From Rhizophagus irregularis (lineage: Eukaryota; Glomeromycota; Glomeromycetes; Glomerales; Glomeraceae), in assembly GCF_026210795.1 (NCBI RefSeq), contig NC_089429.1, positions 7,163,001 to 7,227,000 of the forward strand: a DNA stretch of 64,000 nucleotides. The letters run 5' to 3'. Below, piece after piece: positions 4,701-57,012 of this stretch. The position numbers and the translations under genes were made by a program. Below the pieces are notes generated by a model that did not search any database, was not told the DNA's origin, and saw only the letters and a program-made list of their open reading frames with translations. The stretch's first letter is position 1. Each line of letters begins with the position of its first letter.

Positions 4701-6267
4701 GGATATCGCCTCCACGCCGGCTATAGTAATTGACCAAGATCGGTTAATAGATATAAGGTTCGGCTCTTCGGATTTAGCTAAGACTTTAATGGACGCCAAA
4801 AAACGTTTGTTAACACTAAGTCAACTAAAATTTTATACCGATGGTAGTCTTAAAAAACGCTCCCATGGTAGTATCATAGACAGCAATGCTAGATCGAACA
4901 TCAAATGGGACCCAAATACTAATGAGGTAGCGCAAGGCGCAGCATTTTATTGAAATTACAACAGAACAACATGTTGTGTCGCGCATTGACAATTGGCCAT
5001 CTTCGACCAGGGCGGAAATATATACAATTTTACTGGCGTTACTTACTTGTTCAAATGGATCGAAAGTGCTCATATATACAGACAACGCGGCAGCGATACA
5101 AGCAATTAATGGAATATTAGGCACCAGACCGAGAAATTTTAGTTAGAAATAATTTTTTATTATTATATAGAATTTTTAGAGTAGTTAGAAAGGGTAATTT
5201 AGATTTAGAACATAAAGTAAAAGGACACAGTGGGTATATATGGAACGAGAAAGTAGATGAATTAGCCAAACTCGCTAGTACTAGCCCTTCGACTCAATTC
5301 AACCTAGCCCACGATGATATAAACTTTTTACCAACGATCGATAATATTAAGAACATGATACAATTTTTTAATGACGCGCAATGGACTGTAATCAAGATGC
5401 CTTAATAGATCGTATAAAGATTACGACTGGGATGTCACATGGAACGCTGTGAAATAAGTCAAACATTTCAAATGCACAAGTTCTATTCGCAACAAATTCT
5501 GGGCGTTTTGGGTTAAAAAATTGCTGAACAACCTATTACCGATAGGAAAACTGCTCCAATTACGTTCCAACGCTGTACAAAAATTTCACTTGCCCAATGT
5601 GTAATATAGAAGATGAAAGGTAGCACATATTGGTTCATGTACAGGACACAGAGCAATAGAAGCCAAAGCGGCAATTTCACTCGTCCCTGCTTACCATACT
5701 ACAAAGAGACTTAAATTTTAAAGCCAAAGCGGCAATTTTCACTCGTCCCTGCTTACCATACTACAAAGAGACTTAAATTTTAAATCAACAGCAAGCGGAC
5801 AATTTTCTCAAAAGATTAATTGGAATTTCTGTGACTTCAGAGGGGTTTTCATCGATCTTTCAGGATGCAATAAAAGGAAAAATCGACGCATCCATGACGA
5901 ATAAAGCGTCAAAACTGTTTAATTTTACCAGGAATAAATGTATTACATTTTGTACCAAATTGCTAACTATCATGTTACCCAGATTTTCATAGAATGGTGG
6001 ACTTCCAGATGTCAGTTGACCGTTCAGTGGGAAAGTACAAACGGTATCTCCACCTTAATGAACAGATCGGTCAGTAACAACAAACATAACAACTCTGTCC
6101 GGCGTAAACCACGGTCAAACAGTGATGAATTTGAAACGTACGACGGCCCAATGCGTAACATTGTCGACTCTAGAGGAGGTACTCTAATCAAGCCAGCTGA
6201 ATGTTTCGCCAGGTCCCTCCGAAAGATGATGGATCAAGCAGGATTATTCGCTCAACAAAATCGTTAG
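1741..6267 (+). pseudogene. LINE ORF2: reverse transcriptase / RNase H polyprotein, decayed
   Basis: The remains of the ORF2 protein that nicks, reverse-transcribes and inserts the element. RT motif A is visible as FQDISNAFD (about 2913-2939), motif B as GIDQGDSLSPL (about 3094-3126) and the catalytic YMDD box at 3286-3297. The region at 1741-2300 is linker. At 5591-5640 a zinc-knuckle-like C-P-M-C...H-x3-H stretch (zf-RVT type) is interrupted by TAG. RNase H shows FYTDGS near 4835, YTDNAAAIQAI near 5077 and GHSGYIWNEKVDELAKLA near 5222-5275, which gives Asp residues and a His as in type I RNase H. The last open segment ends at TAG 6265-6267. At least six frame changes or stops separate the parts, so no active protein can be made. 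Confidence 0.85.
5660..5782 (+). repeat. 61-62 bp tandem duplication inside the LINE
   Basis: The block starting AAGCCAAAGCGGCAATTT at 5660 is repeated immediately at 5721. The two copies differ only by one T in a T run. The duplication lies after the RNase H region and shifts the frame. The near-identity suggests it is much younger than the element's other damage. Confidence 0.85.
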
Positions 6268-16950: not shown

Positions 16951-17394
16951 TTATATTTTAAGTATCTGTTTGATTTTTGTTTACTAGGAAGATCATTTCC
17001 TACTGATTATATAATTTGCGGCAATTAATACAATCATACATATGCACTTTGATTTCAAATTTAAATTAATAAATTTAATGAATAAAATTCATAAAAATTG
17101 CAATTTTGATTTATGACTTACATGTTACAGTATATTTATTTGCATAAGCTAATCTAGCATAAATTAATCTAGCAATACAGACTATCACAGGTCGAACAGA
17201 TGTCATTGTCGCAAAATTTGCCTGGAATTTTTCTGGCAAATTGAGAATTATCCCGGTAAATTGAGGTAAATTGTGTTACAATTTTGGGATAATGGAGGAC
17301 TTACAATTTGGCAAATTTTGTCAAAATGGCGGAATTCCTACAGAATTCCTAATTCAAATGTTGAGAAATTTTTCAGTAAATTATCATTAAATTG

Positions 17395-17870
17395 TGGGAA
17401 ATTTTAGGCAAATTTTTAGTAATGTTATGCAAACGAAGTGTAAATTGTGGTGAATTTAGTTAAATTTTTAGTAATTTTATGCAAACTTAATGTAAATTGT
17501 GGTGAATTTTAGGCAAATTTTTAGTAATTTTATGCAAACGAAGTGCAAATTGTGGTGAATTTAGTTAAATTTTTAGTAATGTTATGTAAACGAAGTGCAA
17601 ATTGTGGTGAATTTAGTTAAATTTTTAGTAATTATATGTAAACGTAATGTAAATTGTGGTGAATTTAGTTAAATTTTTAGTAATGCTATGCAAACGAAGT
17701 GCAAATTGTGGTGAATTTAGTTAAATTTTTAGTAATGTTATGTAAACATAATGTAAATTGTGGTGAATTTAGTTAAATTTTTAGTAATGCTATGCAAACG
17801 AAGTGCAAATTGTGGTAAATTTAGTTAAATTTTTAGTAATGTTATGCAAACGTAATGCAAATAGTGGTAA
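17395..17870 (-). repeat. 52-bp tandem array (about 9 copies)
   Basis: The unit runs GTGGTGAATTTAGTTAAATT, then TTTAGTAATGTTATG and a CAAACGAAGTGCAAATT-like end. GTGGTGAATTT starts at 17,447, 17,499, 17,552, 17,604, 17,656, 17,708 and 17,760. Degenerate relatives continue on both sides, from about 17,215 to 18,220. A long minus-strand frame runs through the array only because the unit lacks stops in one frame. Confidence 0.85.
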
Positions 17871-18440
17871 ATTGTAGTGTATTTTTAGTAATATTATGTA
17901 AATTGTTGAAAATTTAGGTGAATTTTTCAGCAATGTTGTGCAAACGTAATACAAATTGTGGAAAATTGTGGTGAATTTTGCATTTTTTTGGTAAATGTTA
18001 GCTAGATTTTTGAATAATTTAGTGAAATTTAGGATAATTTCGGACAATTGAGTGAAAATGTTTTACCGATTTTGGACAATTGAGTGTAAACGATATAAAT
18101 GCAACATTTTCGAAGATAATTTAGTGAAATTTTGCAATAATTTCAGATAATTGAGTGAAATTTTTGGACAATTGAGCGAAATTTAGTAATAATTTTAAAC
18201 AATTTAGTGTAAACGCCATGACAATTTAAAACACTGATTTATAATCTATTATAATTTTATTTATTAATAAATGCACAATTATTATTATTTAACGATAATC
18301 TATATTTATCAGATATCCGATAATCTATGGATAATCCGCACCAGTGCCAAAATAGAAAACCTAAAAAAGAAAAAAAATGAAACATTAATATACATTTCGT
18401 AAAAAAAAATAAATTAAAGAAACATTTCGAAGTTATATAC

Positions 18441-18970
18441 CTTCGAAATGTTGAATTCCATACGTCCAATAAGCCGCCTGAACCTAAAAAAGAAAAAAAA
18501 ACGAAACATTAATTTATGTTTCATGAAAAAAATTAAATTAAAGAAACATTTCGAAGTTATATACCTTCGAAATGTTGAATTCCATACGTCCAATAAGCCG
18601 CTGAACCTAAAAAAGAAAAAAAACGAAACATTAATTTATGTTTCATGAAAAAAATTAAATTAAAGAAACATTTCGAAGTTATATACCTTCGAAATGTTGA
18701 ATTCCATACGTCCAATAAGCCGCTGAACCTAAAAAAGAAAAAAAATGAAACATTAATTTATGTTTCGTGAAAAAAATTAAATTAAAGAAATATTTCGAAG
18801 TTACATACCTTTGAAATGTTGAATTCCATACGTCCAATGAGCTGCTGAACCTAAAAAAGAAAAAAAAACGAAACATTAATAACCGTTTCGTTGAAAAAAA
18901 TAAAAATAAAAAATATTTTGAAGTATACCTTCGAAATATTGAATTCTGGTCTGTCCAATGGCCGCCGAAC
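18441..18970 (-). repeat. 120-bp repeats, each one 42-nt exon plus one hairpin intron
   Basis: Five units. The exon blocks at 18929, 18809, 18687 and 18565 are exactly 42 nt and share one open phase that encodes a 14-residue repeat, such as VQRLIGRMEFNISK, VQQLIGRMEFNISK or VRRPLDRPEFNISK. The fifth (18441-18483) has one extra G. That shifts the frame into a last exon whose open frame then ends at 18,257. The block upstream (19042-19242) is 201 nt, keeps phase and also ends in NISK, but holds two in-frame TGA codons, so a full-length protein is not shown. In each unit the exon end ATTTCGAAG pairs with intron CTTCGAAAT around the GTATATAA loop. Confidence 0.75.
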
Positions 18971-19304
18971 CTAAAAAAAAAAAAATGAAGCGTTAATAAA
19001 CACTTCGTTGAAAAATAAAATAAAAAAATTTCGAAGTATACCTTCGAAATATTCCCTTTCGTTTTCCCTTTCCCTTTCGTTCTCACCCTTCCCTTTCGTC
19101 TTCTCTTTCGTTTTCTCTTTTCCTTTACATTTTTCACCTTTCCCTTTCATTTTTCACATTCCCCTTTCGTTTTTCACCTTTCCCTTTCGTTCTCATCTTT
19201 CTCTTTCCTTTCGTTCTCACCTTTCCCTTTCATTCCTTTAACCTATAAAAAAACAAAAAATAAACGAAACTTAAATAATGTTTCGTTATATAATAAAAGA
19301 ACAC

Positions 19305-20703
19305 CCCACCAAATGCCCGGAGTTTCCTTTGTCTCCTCCAATTACTTGGATGGGTTCTTCAATTCATTCACCTTTGCCAAGCACTTTCTTTTTGAACTTC
19401 TTAACCATTTTAGTTCCAATTTGGCAGAAGTGGATGTTAAGGTGATCTATAAAAAAAATTGAAACGTTAGTTAACGTTTCGTTAAGAAATAAAGAAAAAA
19501 ATATAAACAAAAACAAATTTTCCTTTATTACCTTCCACCCAAAGTCTGGTTCGTGAATTCGTTCCGGCGTTCCTACAAAAAGTAAAGGAAAGAAACGTTT
19601 AATATCGTTTCTTTAAAAAAAAACAATAAATTAAGTTTCGCAACGATTCGTTGCAAAACTCACTGGGTCGTTTCATCCAAACGTCCAGAACCTACAAAAA
19701 GAAGGAAAGAAACGTTAGTTAACGTTTCTTTTAATAAAAAAAAAATAAAAAATTAAGTATCGCAATGTAACATTGCGAAACTTACCAGTTCGTTTTTATC
19801 ATTCTAACGTCCGGAACCTACAAAAAGTAAAAAAGAAACGTTAATATAAACGTTTCTTATAATAAAAAAAATAAAAATTAAGTTTCGCAATGTAATATTG
19901 CGAAACTTACCATCATCCTAACGTCCGGAACCTACAAAAAGTAAAATAAAGAAACGTTAGTTAACGTTTCTTAAAAAGAAATAAATAAAAATAAAGTTTC
20001 GCAACACAATGTTGCGAAACTTACCGGTTCATTTCGAACTCATCATCCAAACGTCCGGCGTTCCTACAAAAAGAAAAAGGAAACTTAGAAACGTTTCCTT
20101 ACAAAAAAAAGAAAAAAATTTTTTTCTTAAAAGTTTCGAAGCGTACAACAACACGCTTCGAAACTTACCGATTCGCCTTCTAAAGTCGAATATCGAAAAA
20201 TCTCTACAAAAAAAAAATAGGAAACGTTAGAAACGTTTCCTTACAAAAAATTAAAAAAAAATAATTTTTTTTAAAAAGTTTCGAAGCGAAACGCTTTGAA
20301 ACTTACCCTTTCAGTTCCTTGCTTCCCGAAGTCGAATACCGAAAGACCTACACAAAAAAAGAAAGAAAGGAAACGTTAGAAAAGTTTCCTAAAGAAATTA
20401 AAAATTTTCAAAAAGTTTCGAACATATGCTTCGAAACTTACCATTTCGAATCCCAAAGAAGCATGCCGAAGGACCTACACAAAAAAAAAATAAGAAACGT
20501 TAGATACGTTTCCTAAAGAAATTAAAAAAAAAACACTGTTTTGAAGTGAACTCGCTTCGAAACTTACCCTTAATTTCCTAAATTTCCGAAATCGAATATC
20601 GAGATCTAAAAAAAAAGAGAGTATAGGAAGCGTTAGAAACGTTTCCTAAAAGAAATTAAAAAAAATATATTAAAAGTTTCGAAGCGAACGCTTCGAAACT
20701 TAC
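19305..20703 (-). repeat. ~125-135 bp repeats of microexon plus double-hairpin intron
   Basis: About ten units. Introns start GTAAGTTTCG, form a stem with the inverse CGAAAC 10-20 nt later, and near the 3' end form a second stem GAAACGTT...AACGTTTC before a T-run and TTTGTAG or TGTGTAG. The first stem differs between units (arms GAAGCG, GCAACA or GCAATA) but pairing is kept. The exon blocks are related in two groups. One is around TTCCGGACGTTWGGATGATG (19664-20063) and the other around TCTTTCGRTATTCGACTTCG (20169-20605). Block lengths 38, 33, 41, 35, 39, 21, 32, 28 and 41 do not keep one frame throughout. Confidence 0.75.
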
Positions 20704-20960
20704 CATTTCGTTGGAATTTTCCGGGAAGGGAAAGGGGAAGGGGAGAGAAAGAGAGGGGAAAAGGGCGAAGGGAAGGGAAATGAAACGAAAAGGGAGGAAG
20801 AGAACGAAAGGGAAAGGGAAAATGGAGGGAGAAAAGGGGGAAATGAAACGAAAAGGGAGGAGGAGAAAGGGAAAGGGAAAATGGAACGAAAGGGAGGGGG
20901 AGAACGAAAGGGAAAGGGAAAGGGAATGAAAGGGAAAGGGAAAGGGAAGAAAGAAAGAGG
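20704..20960 (-). other. Strand-asymmetric polypurine/polypyrimidine tract
   Basis: Almost pure purine on the plus strand (GGGAAAGGG and AACGAAAGGG modules). It is the first block of the microexon array on the minus strand, where it is open in every frame because pyrimidine codons contain no stops. A second tract of opposite asymmetry (pyrimidine on plus) is the block 19042-19242. Confidence 0.7.
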
Positions 20961-20971
20961 ACGTGAGAAAA

Positions 20972-21092
20972 AAAAATTAAGCTTTTGCTAAAAAAAGCTT
21001 AATTTTTTTTTTCGTTATACCGCAGCTGAAGCTGCGGTAATTATTAAGTAATATCACGTGACGCACGTGATATATAATTTTATATAAATAGG
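20972..21092. promoter_or_regulatory. Palindrome cluster with E-box-like sites and TATA-like box
   Basis: There are three perfect or near-perfect palindromes in a row: AAATTAAGCTTTTG with its inverse (about 20,975-21,008), ACCGCAGCTGAAGCTGCGGT (about 21,019-21,038), and a 23-bp one made of ATATCACGTG, ACG and CACGTGATAT (about 21,050-21,072) with two CACGTG cores. TTATATAAATAGGGG follows at about 21,081-21,095 and is TATA-like on either strand. It lies just upstream of the minus-strand microexon unit, so it could be that unit's promoter. This is inferred from position and motifs only. Confidence 0.4.
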
Positions 21093-21180
21093 GGCTTTCC
21101 CCCGCCCCAGAATTTTTTTTTTTATTTTAATAATTTTAAATAGATGTATATATATATATTATATATATATATATATATAT

Positions 21181-21330
21181 CTATTAACTAATACTTTACG
21201 AAAAGCCCCTCCTCTGTAAACAGGTAGAGGTCATAAAGTACCTATAGGGGAGAGCCATTGCTGCTCCCTCCGCCTGTTTATAGTGACAAAAAGAGGGAGT
21301 CTTCAGTAGTAAGGTTTAGTATTAAATTAC
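21181..21330. other. GC-richer block with nested inverted repeats
   Basis: It contains CCCCTCCTCT with AGAGG and AGGGG downstream, CTGTAAACAGG matched by CCTGTTTATAG, and CTCCCTC matched by GAGGGAG. The arms are interleaved, as in a folded RNA or an old terminal repeat. On the minus strand a 19-codon frame MALPYRYFMTSTCLQRRGFS is open. Neither reading is strong. The block stands out from the AT-rich arrays on both sides. Confidence 0.35.
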
Positions 21331-21474
21331 ATCACAACACATCGTGTTATATTAACAATGTGTTTAATGTTAAATAATGCGTTTAAAATATAAATATTAT
21401 AAATTTAATAATGTACGTAATTAAATAAATAAAAATTATCATCAATTTTTAATGTAATTAAGTGTAATGCTACG

Positions 21475-21960
21475 TTATCCAATGTAATTGTAGTATTTTT
21501 TTGTGTTTTTTAGTGCAATTCCGCGTTTTTTAGTGCAATTCCGCATTTTCTAGCATAATGTTACATTTTCCAGTATAACGCGAAATTTTTTAAAAAAAAA
21601 ATGATAATTGTGGTACTTTTTAGTGTAATGCTACATTGTCTAGTGCAATTGTGGTATTTTTTAGTGCAATTCTGAATTTTCTAGCATAATGTTACATTTT
21701 CCAGCATAACACGAAATTTTCTAAAAAATATGATAATTGTGGTACTTTTTAGTGTAATGCTACATTGTCTAGTGTAATTGTGGTATTTTTTAGTGCAATG
21801 CCGCATAATCTAGTATAGTGCTACATTTTTTAGTATAATTTAATGTAATGTGGAATTTTCCAAAAAATGAGATAATTGTGATGCTTTTTAGTGTAATTTG
21901 GTGAAATGCTACATTTTCCAGTGTAATGCTATATTACTGAGCATTTTCAAAAAAAAATGT
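21475..21960. repeat. ~130-bp tandem array (3-4 copies)
   Basis: The unit contains GATAATTGTGGTACTTTTTA, GTGTAATGCTACATTGTC, GTGCAATTCCGCATTTTC and CAGTATAACGCGAAATTTT. Copies of the first phrase start near 21,603, 21,731 and 21,871. No coding potential. Confidence 0.75.
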
Positions 21961-22580
21961 AAAATCTTAACATTCTGACGAAAATGAAACATTTTGACCA
22001 AAAAAACGTAAAATTTGCTGAAAATATGCAACATTTGACAGAAAATATAGAATTTTCATTAAAAAATACACCATTTGCAAGAAAATCGGAATATTTGACA
22101 AAATTTGAATTTAATTGACAATGTTATAACAATTTTATGAAATGTTGTTACAATGATATCACATTGAAGATAAAATGTGGCATTTTCATAAAAATGCACC
22201 ATTTGCAAGAAAATTGGAACATTTGACAAAAAAAAAGCAAAATTTGATTTTAATTGACAATGTTATAACAATTTTATTAAATGTTATTACATTTGAGGTA
22301 AAATGTGAAATTTTCATAAAAATGCACCATTTGCAAGAAAATTGGAACATTTAACAAAAAAAAAGCAAAATTTGATTTTAATGACAATGTTATAACAATG
22401 TTACGAAATGTTACAAAAATGTTACATTTGAGATATAATGTAGCATTTTCCCAAAATTTCATAAGATTTGCTAAATCGGACAATGTTGTAACAATGCTAT
22501 TCCAAAAAATTGCTCAGCGTAATGCAGCATTTTCCACAATTTCCCACCATTTTCCAGGAAAATGGGGAATTTGCATTTTT
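21960..22580. repeat. ~125-130 bp tandem array (3 clear copies plus degenerate ends)
   Basis: ACCATTTGCAAGAAAAT begins near 22,069, 22,195 and 22,326. Each is followed by GGAACATTTGACAAA- and TTGACAATGTTATAACAAT-like phrases. Short frames inside (for example 22,277-22,583) are products of the repeat. Confidence 0.75.
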
Positions 22581-22690
22581 TGAATTTTGGACAATGGCGC
22601 CCCTTCGACCTGTGTATTACTACTCATATTACATATAACTATGTAAAATTCCATTCACTAATATAAATTCTAAAATAATTCATCTTAAAA

Positions 22691-24132
22691 TTAAAAAGAA
22701 AGATTGTGGGCAATACCACGAAGAAATTCCATAAGTGAACGGTTACTTCGCTCATTAATAATTGACATAATCCTATTTTCTCTTTCAATCCAAACTTTTT
22801 TCTGCTTCTTTCTTTGTTCTCCACGTATAATACATTCAATTTGAAGCTCAACCTGCTGCTGTTCTCTTTGAATCTCATTAATAATAGTGAAAAGTCCTAC
22901 ATGGATTCACCAACCAGAACTTCCCATCTACGATGCCATGCCTCAACTACATTTTGGGTTCTTGGAATCCCCAATTGGATAGAGTCATATACCGACCACA
23001 ATTGTGGTGGAAAAGGAAGTGCAGAACGAACCACATGGCCATTTCGCATTTCTCGGCGAATTCTCTCAAGAACATAATTGTCTTCAAACCATTGCACCAA
23101 ATCATTGGCCTCTTGAGGCATTTGTGGTTTTAAAATATTAAAAGCTGCGGGTATTTCTTGAGAGGGTAAAAAGGCTAAAGCAAATAAATGTCGTACCATA
23201 ATGCTAAAATGCTCATCATTTCCATATTGAATCGCTAATCCACATCTTTGTATTTGCCGCCACCCATTTTGACAAAGATGAAAAAAACATCCTTTATTAT
23301 TGGTATCAGGAAATTTACTACGTGATACATTAATTGCTGCCAACTCAAAATCAGTAATGATACTTTGTGGCTTTAATTCAATATCATTATCTTCGGCAAA
23401 CTCAATTAAATTTTCAAATAACCACCTGTATAGCACCTCAGATTTACGAGTCATAAGTGCATACACCAGTGGAAGAATCCTAGAATTGTCTTCAGCACCA
23501 ACAGGTGCGTGTATTGTGTACATTTGATGGAATATGGTAGGAACAGTCTTAAATGTTCCGTTCATAATCCAAAATAATGCATTAGCTAAGTGCTGGATAT
23601 TTTCTCTTGTAGTAAATAGAAGGATTCGTTCTTGACCAACCATATAATCTTTAACTAGGAAAATATTTCCATGCAATGTATGACAAAGTGATTCTGGTAT
23701 GTTTATTTCAGTAATATTTTGTGGCTGAGGTGGCATTTCTGATTTTCTAACACGGCTAATTGTTCTACGAAGAGCATTAGGTGATGGGATGTAAGGATGA
23801 ATTTCTTCTGGAATACTAATAATATTATCTTGAATTATTTTTGCGGGTTTATCTCTTGTTTCAGAAGCTTGACGCTTGATCTGAGCAGTAAGTTTTGCGA
23901 CTCCAGCATCACTTGCTTGAGGTGCGTGATTATGATCAGTACAACTTCGAAGATAATGCAAGTTATTACATAAGGTTGTTACAGCACGGCCTTTACACCC
24001 TTCTGATTTTCTTTTTGCACAACACCAGTAAAATATTGCCTCACGGTTCCGTTCCTTTACCATCAAATAACCTCGAACATTGATTTTATTATTTCCCTTA
24101 TTTGAAGGTACAATATCACAAACCTCATCCAT
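22691..24132 (-). pseudogene. MULE transposase with FLYWCH zinc finger, one frameshift
   Basis: The DDE transposase that would mobilise the surrounding element. The ATG at 24,132 opens 411 codons. A FLYWCH-type finger lies at about residues 20-70 (IFYWCCAK, GCKGRA, CTDHNHAP). The MULE catalytic core follows: MNGTFKTVP at about 190-198, IITDFE at 258-263, GCFFHLCQNGW at 281-291 and a candidate acidic residue in QWFEDNY near 350. In the family the first motif is normally DGTF; here residue 191 is Asn (codon 23,560-23,562), so the first catalytic Asp is missing. A single-base deletion around 22,903-22,908 causes the TAG at 22,897. The other frame continues at once (HVGLFTIINEIQREQQQ) to a TAA at 22,691-22,693, giving a natural length of about 480 residues. 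It lies on the same strand as the microexon unit. Confidence 0.9.
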
Positions 24133-55083: not shown

Positions 55084-57012
55084 GTCAAATAAATAAAAAT
55101 TGGCTGATTTTAGCTATATTTGTCCGATTTGTGACTTTTTACAGCCGTATTACCAATTCTTAACCACATTTTTCAGTTTTTTCACTATACAAAAAAATTG
55201 TATATACATTATGAAATATATATTTTTATAAAAAATTATATTGTAATATTGAATTAAAATTTAAAAAATATTTTATTAAGCAATATTAAATAAAAAACTA
55301 ATCTTAAATAATTAAATTTTAAACAAAATACATTAAGAATATAAATTTACTTGTAATTTAATGTAATACGCACAATTATAAAAAATTAATAACTCCACAA
55401 ATATTAACTGCGCCTTCATTAAAATAAATATTCAAGTAGATTCTAAGCTGCTGAACAATTTTTAATTAATAAAAGAAGTCGATTTACTTTGGCTAAAGTG
55501 CTTAAAATACGCTCTGAAGTAACAAAATGGAAAAAATAAAATTCGTAAATGAGTACCGTTGTGAAAATCGTGAATAACTCATCAAGTATTAACTGTACCT
55601 TCGTAGAAATTAATATCCAAGTAGATTTTGACCTGCTAAACAACTTTCAATTAATAAAAGAAGTCGATTTACTTTGACTAAAGTGCTCAAAATACGCTCT
55701 GAAGTGACAAAACGGAAAAAAATAAAATTCGTAAATGAGTACTGTTGTGAAAATCGTGAATAACTCATCAAGTATTAACTGTACCTTCGTAAAAATTAAT
55801 ATCCAAGTAGATTTTGACATGCTAAACAACTTTCAATTAATAAAAGAAGTCGATTTACTTTGACTAAAGTGCTCAAAATACGCTCTGAAGTGACAAAACG
55901 GAAAAAAATAAAATTCGTAAATGAGTACTGTTGTGAAAATCGTGAATAACTCATCACGTATTAACTGTACCTTCGTGAAAATTAATATTCAAGTAGATTT
56001 TGACATGCTAAACAACTTCAATTAATAAAAGAAGTCGATTTACTTTGACTAAAGTGCTCAAAATACGCTCTGAAGTGACAAAACGGAAAAAAATAAAATT
56101 CGTAAATGAGTACCATTGTGAAAATCGTGAATAACTCATCAAGTATTAACTGTACCTTCTTGAAAATTAATATTCAAGTAGATTTTGACATGCTAAACAA
56201 CTTTCAATTAATATAAGAAGTTGGGTTACTTTGGATAAAGTGCTCAAAATACGCTCTGAAGTGACAAAATAAAAAAAATAAAAGTCATGAATGAGTACTG
56301 TTGTGAAAATTGTAAATAACTCATCAAGTATTAACTGTACCTTCGTGAAAATTAATATCCAAGTAGATTTTAACCTGCCGAACAACTTACAATTAATATA
56401 AGAAGTTGATTTACTTTGGCTAAAGATCTCAAAATACGCTCTGAAGGTAAAAAAATTTGTAACTTAATACTACTGTATAATATTAAAAATGTAAATAATT
56501 CCAAAAATATTAACTGTACTTTTATGATCTTAACAGTTTTAAACTTACTAAACTACTTTTAATTAAAAGAATAAGATTTACTTCAGCCAAAATGCTCAAA
56601 CCATACTTTGAAATATATGTAAAAAAAATATAATATTTGTTTATATTTTAAATTATGAGTTATTTAATTTAAATGTATTTATATTTAAGAAAAAAAATAT
56701 TTTAATTCTATTTTATAAAGTATTTAAAAAGTATTTTAGTAAAGTTTTTAAGGCAAAAAAATAATTATAACTGAAATAAAAAAAAAAATCTAAGTTAATA
56801 AATAAATATTAAACCGTAATACATAATCACATATATTAAAATCGAAAAATCCTATTACAAATAACCAAAAATCGGCAATTTCATGTTAAAAATCAGAAAT
56901 ATTATATTAAAATCAGAAATATTTATTAAAATCGGAAATATTATATTAAAATTGCCAAAAAATCAGACAGCCATATTAAAAAGGGCAAAAATCTGATTTT
57001 TATTTATTTGAC
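55084..57012. mobile_element. Possible nested foldback inside the 5.7-kb element
   Basis: GTCAAATAAATAAAAATTGG at 55,084 and the inverse ATTTTTATTTATTTGAC ending at 57,012 form an inverted pair. TGGCTGATTTT/AATCAGACAGCC-like phrases continue inwards. They enclose the 204-bp array. No duplication was established. Confidence 0.4.
55440..56450. repeat. ~204-bp satellite array (about 5 copies)
   Basis: The unit contains AAGAAGTCGATTTACTTTGR, CTAAAGTGCTCAAAATACGC, TCTGAAGTGACAAAACGG, AATTCGTAAATGAGTACTGT, TGTGAAAATCGTGAATAACT and CATCAAGTATTAACTGTACC. Copies begin near 55,460, 55,660, 55,845, 56,030, 56,215 and 56,400. The similar minus-strand frames of 60-72 codons are by-products of the repeat. 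Confidence 0.85.

Follow-up and report, generated by a model that had tools for sequence, protein, structure and literature searches.

Within a 64,000-nucleotide stretch of contig C1 of Rhizophagus irregularis, which we call the window, we found a non-autonomous CACTA-type DNA transposon whose cargo is a tandem array of short exons and short, structured GT...AG introns. The array had been described in an earlier note made from the window letters alone, which offered three explanations: an expandable repeat-protein gene, a decaying one or a spliced non-coding RNA. Combining the window with searches of the genome (146.7 Mb, 32 contigs), we consider it moderately probable that the array is a spliced and largely non-coding unit carried by the transposon, and that competence for splicing, not a protein, is what has been kept. 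The sequence features behind this reading are transposon ends with target-site duplications (TSDs), a transposase-coding relative, kept splice dinucleotides, covarying hairpins and the lack of a maintained reading frame. We infer that the array is transcribed and spliced. Among the three options offered, a spliced non-coding RNA would fit best. The earlier interpretation stands for the GT...AG introns, the repeat unit and the RNA structure, whereas its option of an expandable repeat-protein gene is disfavored. It missed the CACTA-type transposon context, the genome-wide repetition and the existing gene models that splice the array.

The transposon and its array

Homology between the window element and other copies breaks sharply near 22614 and 17186. 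The ends carry a terminal inverted repeat (CACAGGTCGAA...TTCGACCTGTG) that starts with CAC and is also present in the 14 other copies read at both ends. An exact 3-bp TSD flanks 13 of these 15 copies (the window included), with a mismatch at loci L029 and L036. A Transposase_21 open reading frame (ORF) is absent from the window copy and present in a same-ended relative of 8.16 kb (L041), which matches the window element at 89-90% over 443 bp at the 5' end and ~800 bp at the 3' end. The L041 ORF encodes 808 amino acids (PF02992 Transposase_21, E=1.4e-9). It is the one such relative read, and no array was detected in it by BLAST above 60 bits or by the intron profile described below. On its CAC-starting inverted repeat, 3-bp TSD, subterminal repeats and Transposase_21 relative, the window element is classed as CACTA/CMC (En/Spm-type). 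Judged from its sequence, the genetic unit is the transposon at 17186-22614, and the 18257-20960 interval of the earlier note is its transcript-like part. On the plus strand of L041, short ORFs at 4884-5591 lie on the strand opposite to the transposase and divergent from it, and possibly represent a second gene.

Element ends recur throughout the genome. Allowing two mismatches, we found the five-prime end 76 times and the three-prime end 82 times, and reversed controls gave 0. Pairing of the ends yielded 61 candidate elements shorter than 16 kb; they measure mainly 4-6.5 or 8-9 kb, and a few are nested or counted twice. A search of the genome with 363 bp of the array gave 108 matches, with 40 of 150 candidates scored; 20 copies (L021-L040) were read from 39 loci counted. 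The exact motif of the second intron hairpin (hairpin 2, see below) occurs in at least 29 of the 41 elements shorter than 6.6 kb, counting perfect matches only, and L023 and L032 carry arrays without a perfect match. The array is therefore a common cargo of the family's non-autonomous form.

On the minus strand at 18256-20963, a CT-rich leader is followed by short exons with GT...AG introns and then by a terminal exon. Motif calling gave 16 introns and a profile with GT and AG masked gave 17; the profile-only intron overlaps an ambiguous stretch (19243-19371) where deposited gene models splice a 129-nt GTGAAT...TATAG intron. The introns are 71-105 nt long and the exons mostly 21-43 nt, with called exon lengths of 38, 33, 41, 35, 39, 21, 32, 28, 41, 101, 201, 42, 42, 42, 42 and 43 nt. 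Tandem Repeats Finder reported periods of 122 bp (5.2 copies, 91% matches), 114 bp (3.8 copies) and 142 bp (2.4 copies), and the repeat unit inside the array blocks is exon and intron together (114-142 bp). The minus-strand microexon array and the whole exon-plus-intron unit of the earlier note are thus confirmed, and its 42-nt blocks, 201-nt GA-rich block and stop codon (18257-18259) overlapping AATAAA are as it described.

The introns are of two types. Type I introns start with GTAAGT and form a stem from donor position +3 (AAGTTTCG...CGAAACTT). In type II introns, the exon tail ATTTCGAAG pairs with CTTCGAAAT in the intron and the donor sits in the loop. Both types form a second hairpin, hairpin 2, in the region of the branch point (a CTAAC-like motif in type I), and from there a U-rich tract leads to TAG. 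Folded together with 14 exon nucleotides, 15 of 16 window introns had z < -2 against dinucleotide shuffles (mean z -4.7; the exception is intron 3), in agreement with their earlier description as structured.

Deposited gene models also recognise the array. The spliced translation of L023 matches 14 deposited R. irregularis proteins and that of L052 matches 4 (P0001-P0018). Nine-residue peptides spanning exon junctions, built from exons of the window and L021-L029, are held by 12 of these 18 models; P0013-P0018, apparently from other subfamilies, had little chance to match this set. Junctions of 9 of the 17 called window introns were matched, some only as repeats of identical units. Because the deposited models are predictions, the junctions are recognisable rather than proven. 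The features are listed below in the direction of the array; introns 1-16 are all supported by the profile and by folding, and protein names mark models that hold the junction peptide.

22615-22617: TSD ATA, 5' side of the element
17186-22614, minus strand: non-autonomous CACTA-type DNA transposon, 5,429 bp, bounded by the loss of homology to other copies and by the terminal inverted repeat
21526-22410: subterminal repeats of ~128-129 bp, 5' side, in two arrays (21526-21829 and 22051-22410)
20721-20963, minus strand: CT-rich leader / exon 1, a pyrimidine tract complementary to the GA-rich exon
20606-20703, minus strand: intron 1, type I, hairpin starting at donor +3, branch-point hairpin
20475-20567, minus strand: intron 2, type I
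20348-20441, minus strand: intron 3, type I, folding z -1.9; P0002, P0012
20204-20306, minus strand: intron 4, type I; P0003
20064-20168, minus strand: intron 5, type I; junction of the L023 counterpart in P0003
19932-20024, minus strand: intron 6, type I
19818-19910, minus strand: intron 7, type I; P0002, P0012
19692-19785, minus strand: intron 8, type I
19573-19663, minus strand: intron 9, type I, GTGAGT; junction of the L021/L023 counterpart in P0004, P0007, P0010-P0012
19447-19531, minus strand: intron 10; 10 protein models
19243-19371, minus strand: gene-model intron GTGAAT...TATAG, 129 nt; 11 protein models
19042-19242, minus strand: GA-rich exon, 201 nt, removed in part or completely by splicing in several gene models
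18971-19041, minus strand: intron 11, type II, exon tail paired with intron start, donor in the loop; P0001, P0002, P0005, P0007
18851-18928, minus strand: intron 12, type II; gene-model junction
18729-18808, minus strand: intron 13, type II; gene-model junction
18607-18686, minus strand: intron 14, type II; gene-model junction
18484-18564, minus strand: intron 15, type II
18361-18440, minus strand: intron 16, type II; gene-model junction
18256-18360, minus strand: terminal exon, stop TAA overlapping AATAAA; C-terminus common to P0001, P0002 and P0004
17389-17902: subterminal 52-bp repeats, 3' side, with matching repeats at the L041 3' end
17183-17185: TSD ATA, 3' side of the element

The predicted duplex between the leader and the GA-rich exon has an energy of -185.5 kcal/mol, compared with -142.3 +/- 6.3 for 50 shuffles of the GA-rich exon. 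This pairing would loop out the introns lying between them. Several strong palindromes (for example CCGCAGCTTCAGCTGCGG) are located at 20960-21300, between the 5' subterminal repeats and the leader; they draw Rfam matches below gathering score to bacterial small RNAs and one microRNA.

Array copies differ by whole units gained or lost. The window and L021-L029 have 5, 5, 4, 6, 4, 3, 4, 3, 4 and 1 exons of 42/43 nt as called, respectively (unsplit blocks in L022, L025, L027 and L029 may conceal further units), and L024 and L028 lack the unit that contains the 32-nt exon. This variation in unit number between transposon copies bears out the earlier suggestion that the array grows by whole splice units.

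Similar arrays are found outside this family. L052 and L053 are copies of a second dispersed repeat (~20 places, 85-100% identity) that carries one. Its ends are CACTGGTC...GACCAGTG; no TSD match was found in either of these two copies, so the second family is called CACTA-like by its ends only. The 3' block of the array is homologous between the two families (72% over ~390 bp). L055-L061 show whole or partial microexon arrays in other contexts, unassigned to any transposon family and with exons that mostly differ, and the six loci read from the hairpin-2 match list (L057-L062) are mostly more arrays. Searched across the genome, the donor-hairpin pattern gave 534 exact matches (strands summed, some palindromic sites counted twice), and its reversed control gave 0. 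Of the 100 matches that were listed, 25 stand alone and fall outside paired elements (for example C1:3241733, C2:4775023 and C3:235311); at least 2 of these 25 are the reverse strand of palindromic sites in second-family arrays, and the remaining ones may include introns of ordinary genes.

Splice sites, hairpins and exon divergence

The splice dinucleotides resist change. In eight cross-subfamily pairs of copies with ~90% identity, whose dinucleotides were masked before alignment, the donor GT was changed in 0 of 43 cases compared with 69 of 277 controls (Fisher 1.6e-5), and the acceptor AG in 5 of 47 compared with 52 of 151 (Fisher 0.0015). In ten young copies, 2 of 268 donor GT cells were changed, compared with 46 of 1,548 control cells (29 of 886 in introns and 17 of 662 in exons). 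The young-copy counts for donor and acceptor, the latter given in the next section, leave the donor GT alone as standing out in these copies.

Among 269 sequence-unique hairpin-2 units from 25 loci, the first AG lies 13-24 nt downstream of the hairpin in 266 and is preceded by T in 264. A stem search blind to GT placed GT at -2, -1, +2, +3, +12 and +13 from the stem start in 46, 47, 58, 42, 62 and 37 of 229 cases, and the control TG at the same offsets in 3, 24, 12, 5, 21 and 8. This spread over several offsets is a less sharp pattern, as would be expected from two intron types. Of the GTRAGT sites on the minus strand of the element, 8 of 10 begin a stem of at least 9 bp. The corresponding numbers are 1 of 46 for both strands of the remaining window and 0 of 9 for 11 transposase loci, which gives no support to the idea that introns of this genome are generally built this way.

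Covariation was analyzed in type I introns. A filter requiring, among other things, a stem of 7 bp or more was passed by 160 of them, and 26 of these were non-redundant. In these 26, 92.4% of cells are paired, and double-sided changes number 36, compared with 14.7 +/- 3.2 in shuffled and 1-11 in slid controls.

In the young copies, variation is higher overall in exons (292 of 7,900 cells, 3.7%) than in introns (243 of 10,663, 2.3%), although not in every exon. The rate of change from the majority base is 0.0198 in the 42-nt exons and 0.0253 in exons 2-9. Where the introns of different units agree at 70-80% (54.9% as the shuffled baseline), the mean for their exons is 55.5% (with 46.4% as baseline).

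Rfam, searched over the element with E values up to 1, gave 8 matches. None of them passed the gathering score of its family, and a known structured-RNA family was dropped as a candidate. Small-nucleolar-RNA host genes have exons that are little conserved and introns that are conserved and structured. The array resembles them in its structured introns and in the conservation of introns over exons, and differs from them in that no Rfam family reaches its gathering score over this element.

Reading frame and alternative explanations

The exons do not keep a reading frame. Exon lengths modulo 3 are distributed 28/20/20 among 68 exons from seven loci, with no preference for multiples of 3, and the 42-nt units of the window correspond to units of 41 and 43 nt in other subfamilies. 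Counts by codon position gave no clear coding signature. In the gene-model frame, 97 changes include 58 missense changes and 8 new stops, compared with 7.7 stops expected by context-matched permutation. Stops at the neutral rate weigh against coding in this sequence comparison. The suggestion of an expandable repeat-protein gene is thus disfavored, with no frame held across units or subfamilies and no avoidance of stops.

The frame results also lend no support to the earlier idea of a mycorrhizal effector, nor do the N-termini of 14 matching gene models, in which no signal peptide was seen by eye (no predictor was run). SP7-like effectors of R. irregularis are reported to combine a signal peptide with coding repeats and to occur as dispersed paralogues (PMC11333574). 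The array shares with their genes the organism, the repeat units and the dispersed paralogues. Unlike these proteins as described there, its frame is not conserved and its models appear by eye to have no signal peptide. In-frame imperfect hydrophilic repeats of the SP7 type were not found, given the exon lengths and the 41-, 42- and 43-nt units described above.

Several observations weigh against a spliced, largely non-coding unit and should be kept in mind. Synonymous changes in the gene-model frame are slightly in excess (31, where 23.9 would be expected; P=0.043 without correction for the 15 frame tests). Open spliced stretches reach 127-155 aa in ten subfamily-A copies, many of them crossing the stop-poor CT-rich leader. 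The GA-rich exon changes from the majority base less often than the introns (0.0112 compared with 0.0137). The protein models are predictions of unknown support that are biased to frame-keeping. In the diverged pairs, 50 of 108 units were aligned and the 58 unaligned ones set aside; L030, L032 and L056 each contributed to two pairs, and a best match may join units that are paralogous. In the young copies, protection of the acceptor AG is not clear (5 of 268 changed, compared with 4 of 354 intron and 47 of 1,111 exon controls), and donor positions +3 to +6 (14 of 536 cells) changed no less frequently than the intron interior (243 of 10,663). One weaker measure among the five of the covariation analysis, further pair types, stood at 24 compared with 20.9, a value reached by 14 of 500 shuffles. 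The preselection of the 26 introns for a stem favors pairing, and covariation less so, and template switching between hairpin arms could mimic covariation.

There are two coding alternatives. The array may be a captured, decaying repeat-protein gene of the Pack-CACTA type, in which host tandem coding exons were taken up, coding constraint was lost and decay is recent enough to leave splice sites. The long open stretches of the subfamily-A copies, and of L030 and L031 (158 aa), the near-identical 42-nt exons and the homologous exons in the second element family are consistent with such an origin, and a soybean CACTA element with spliced gene fragments is known (PMC1947982). We nevertheless regard it as an unlikely, if serious, alternative: no host parent was recognised among the scored matches of the 363-bp array piece (40 of 150 candidates, so one may have been missed), splice dinucleotides are protected at ~10% divergence, the hairpins covary, and exons overall diverge more than introns, opposite to the pattern of a recently coding gene. 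The retained dinucleotides and covarying hairpins also argue against simple decay as the earlier note had framed it. A genuine, fast-evolving transposon protein, for instance an accessory factor whose alternative splicing restores the frame by exon choice, would account for the synonymous excess. It would also explain why gene models disagree on exon choice, skipping different exons and differing on the GA-rich exon, while those of several strains share a common frame in the 3' half, with an identical C-terminus in P0001, P0002 and P0004. A shared frame counts for little, however, since predictors favor paths that keep the frame. Stops at the neutral rate, the 41- and 43-nt exons that replace the window's 42 in other subfamilies and open stretches of at most 76-96 aa in L033-L036, L039 and L040 make this protein improbable.

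The two remaining alternatives concern the introns themselves. An introner-like process, with the intron itself mobile and the arrays as pile-up places, would be in keeping with the 534 donor-hairpin matches and the 25 listed ones that are single and outside paired elements, and fungal introner-like elements are described as structured (PMC8469720). Within blocks, however, exons repeat together with introns, so the multiplying unit is exon plus intron, and we give this process still less credence than the transposon protein. A hairpin satellite within the transposon, whose GT/AG borders are incidental, is very improbable. The prominent palindromes upstream (~20960-21300) and the different placement of type I and type II hairpins relative to the donor would suit it, but diverged copies show specific protection of GT and AG, the first AG falls at a narrow distance from hairpin 2 in nearly all units, a CTAAC-like branch motif is present and gene models use the junctions.

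Possible mechanism, related systems and neighbouring features

For the transposon-borne, spliced, largely non-coding unit that we favor, we propose that a non-autonomous CACTA-type transposon carries a transcription unit of tandem splice units, each consisting of a short exon and a self-folding spliceosomal intron. Transcription would proceed from the pyrimidine-rich leader toward AATAAA. In each intron, one hairpin would form at the 5' splice site or span it, another would surround the branch point, U-rich linkers would lie between the two and TAG would close the intron. The hairpins probably define the introns locally by shortening the path from donor to branch point, and may limit mis-pairing among near-identical neighbouring introns. 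Splice units would be gained and lost as whole exon-plus-intron blocks, a process that the exons, with no frame to maintain, could tolerate. Selection would act on splicing competence (donor, acceptor and the two hairpins) and not on a protein.

Why splicing might be selected is a matter of conjecture. Introns protect mobile DNA from silencing by HUSH in human cells (PMC8770142), and stalled spliceosomes trigger small interfering RNAs and RNA interference in Cryptococcus (PMC6643885, citing Dumesic 2013). Intron density could let the element RNA resemble an ordinary spliced transcript and evade RNA-based transposon silencing; by analogy, the element might benefit by escaping a surveillance for which RNA that lacks introns, or is badly spliced, counts as foreign. 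We tentatively suggest, with considerable doubt, a class of mobile elements with splicing as the selected cargo, in which self-defining hairpin introns separate meaningless exons, expand unit by unit and are shared between transposon families, and whose RNA would avoid RNA-based silencing by posing as a well-spliced host transcript or by occupying the spliceosome. This claim goes further than our classing of the element as CACTA-type with an array of tandem splice units as cargo. An element that keeps splice sites and hairpins amid exon drift would offer a natural test of intron protection against silencing. The set of arrays would provide, genome-wide, introns with covarying structure that have multiplied through tandem duplication. 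Array models deposited as R. irregularis proteins (P0001-P0018) may inflate effector and orphan-gene lists.

Titles and abstract openings, with subscription papers mostly not included, yielded no account of a tandem splice-unit array as transposon cargo. The closest systems differ in what is multiplied. Tgm-Express1 of soybean is a 5.7-kb CACTA element whose cargo of five unrelated host gene fragments is spliced (PMC1947982). The window element is a CACTA element of similar size with a cargo that is likewise predicted to be handled by the spliceosome as exons and introns; its cargo, unlike that of Tgm-Express1, consists of tandem hairpin-intron splice units in many copies, for which no host parent was recognised. 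Integration at new positions in host exons is described for fungal introner-like elements (PMC4457414) and the symmetrical sister introns of Hypoxylaceae (PMC8469720). They share with the array the multiplication of related, short, structured introns within one fungal genome. As these sources describe them, they have one terminal inverted repeat, whereas the introns here have two local hairpins, and exon and intron here multiply together in a DNA transposon. Amoebophrya introners have inverted repeats predicted to form hairpins that join exon borders (PMC7789003), a likeness to the introns of the array; they were identified within a set of non-canonical introns scattered over genes, whereas the introns here are canonical GT-AG and lie in tandem arrays.

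Two further features were observed in the window. A 411-aa ORF with FLYWCH and MULE transposase domains lies on the minus strand at 22897-24132, outside the element and ~280 bp beyond its 5' end. At 55388-56446, a 185-bp tandem repeat is present in 5.7 copies with 93% matches.

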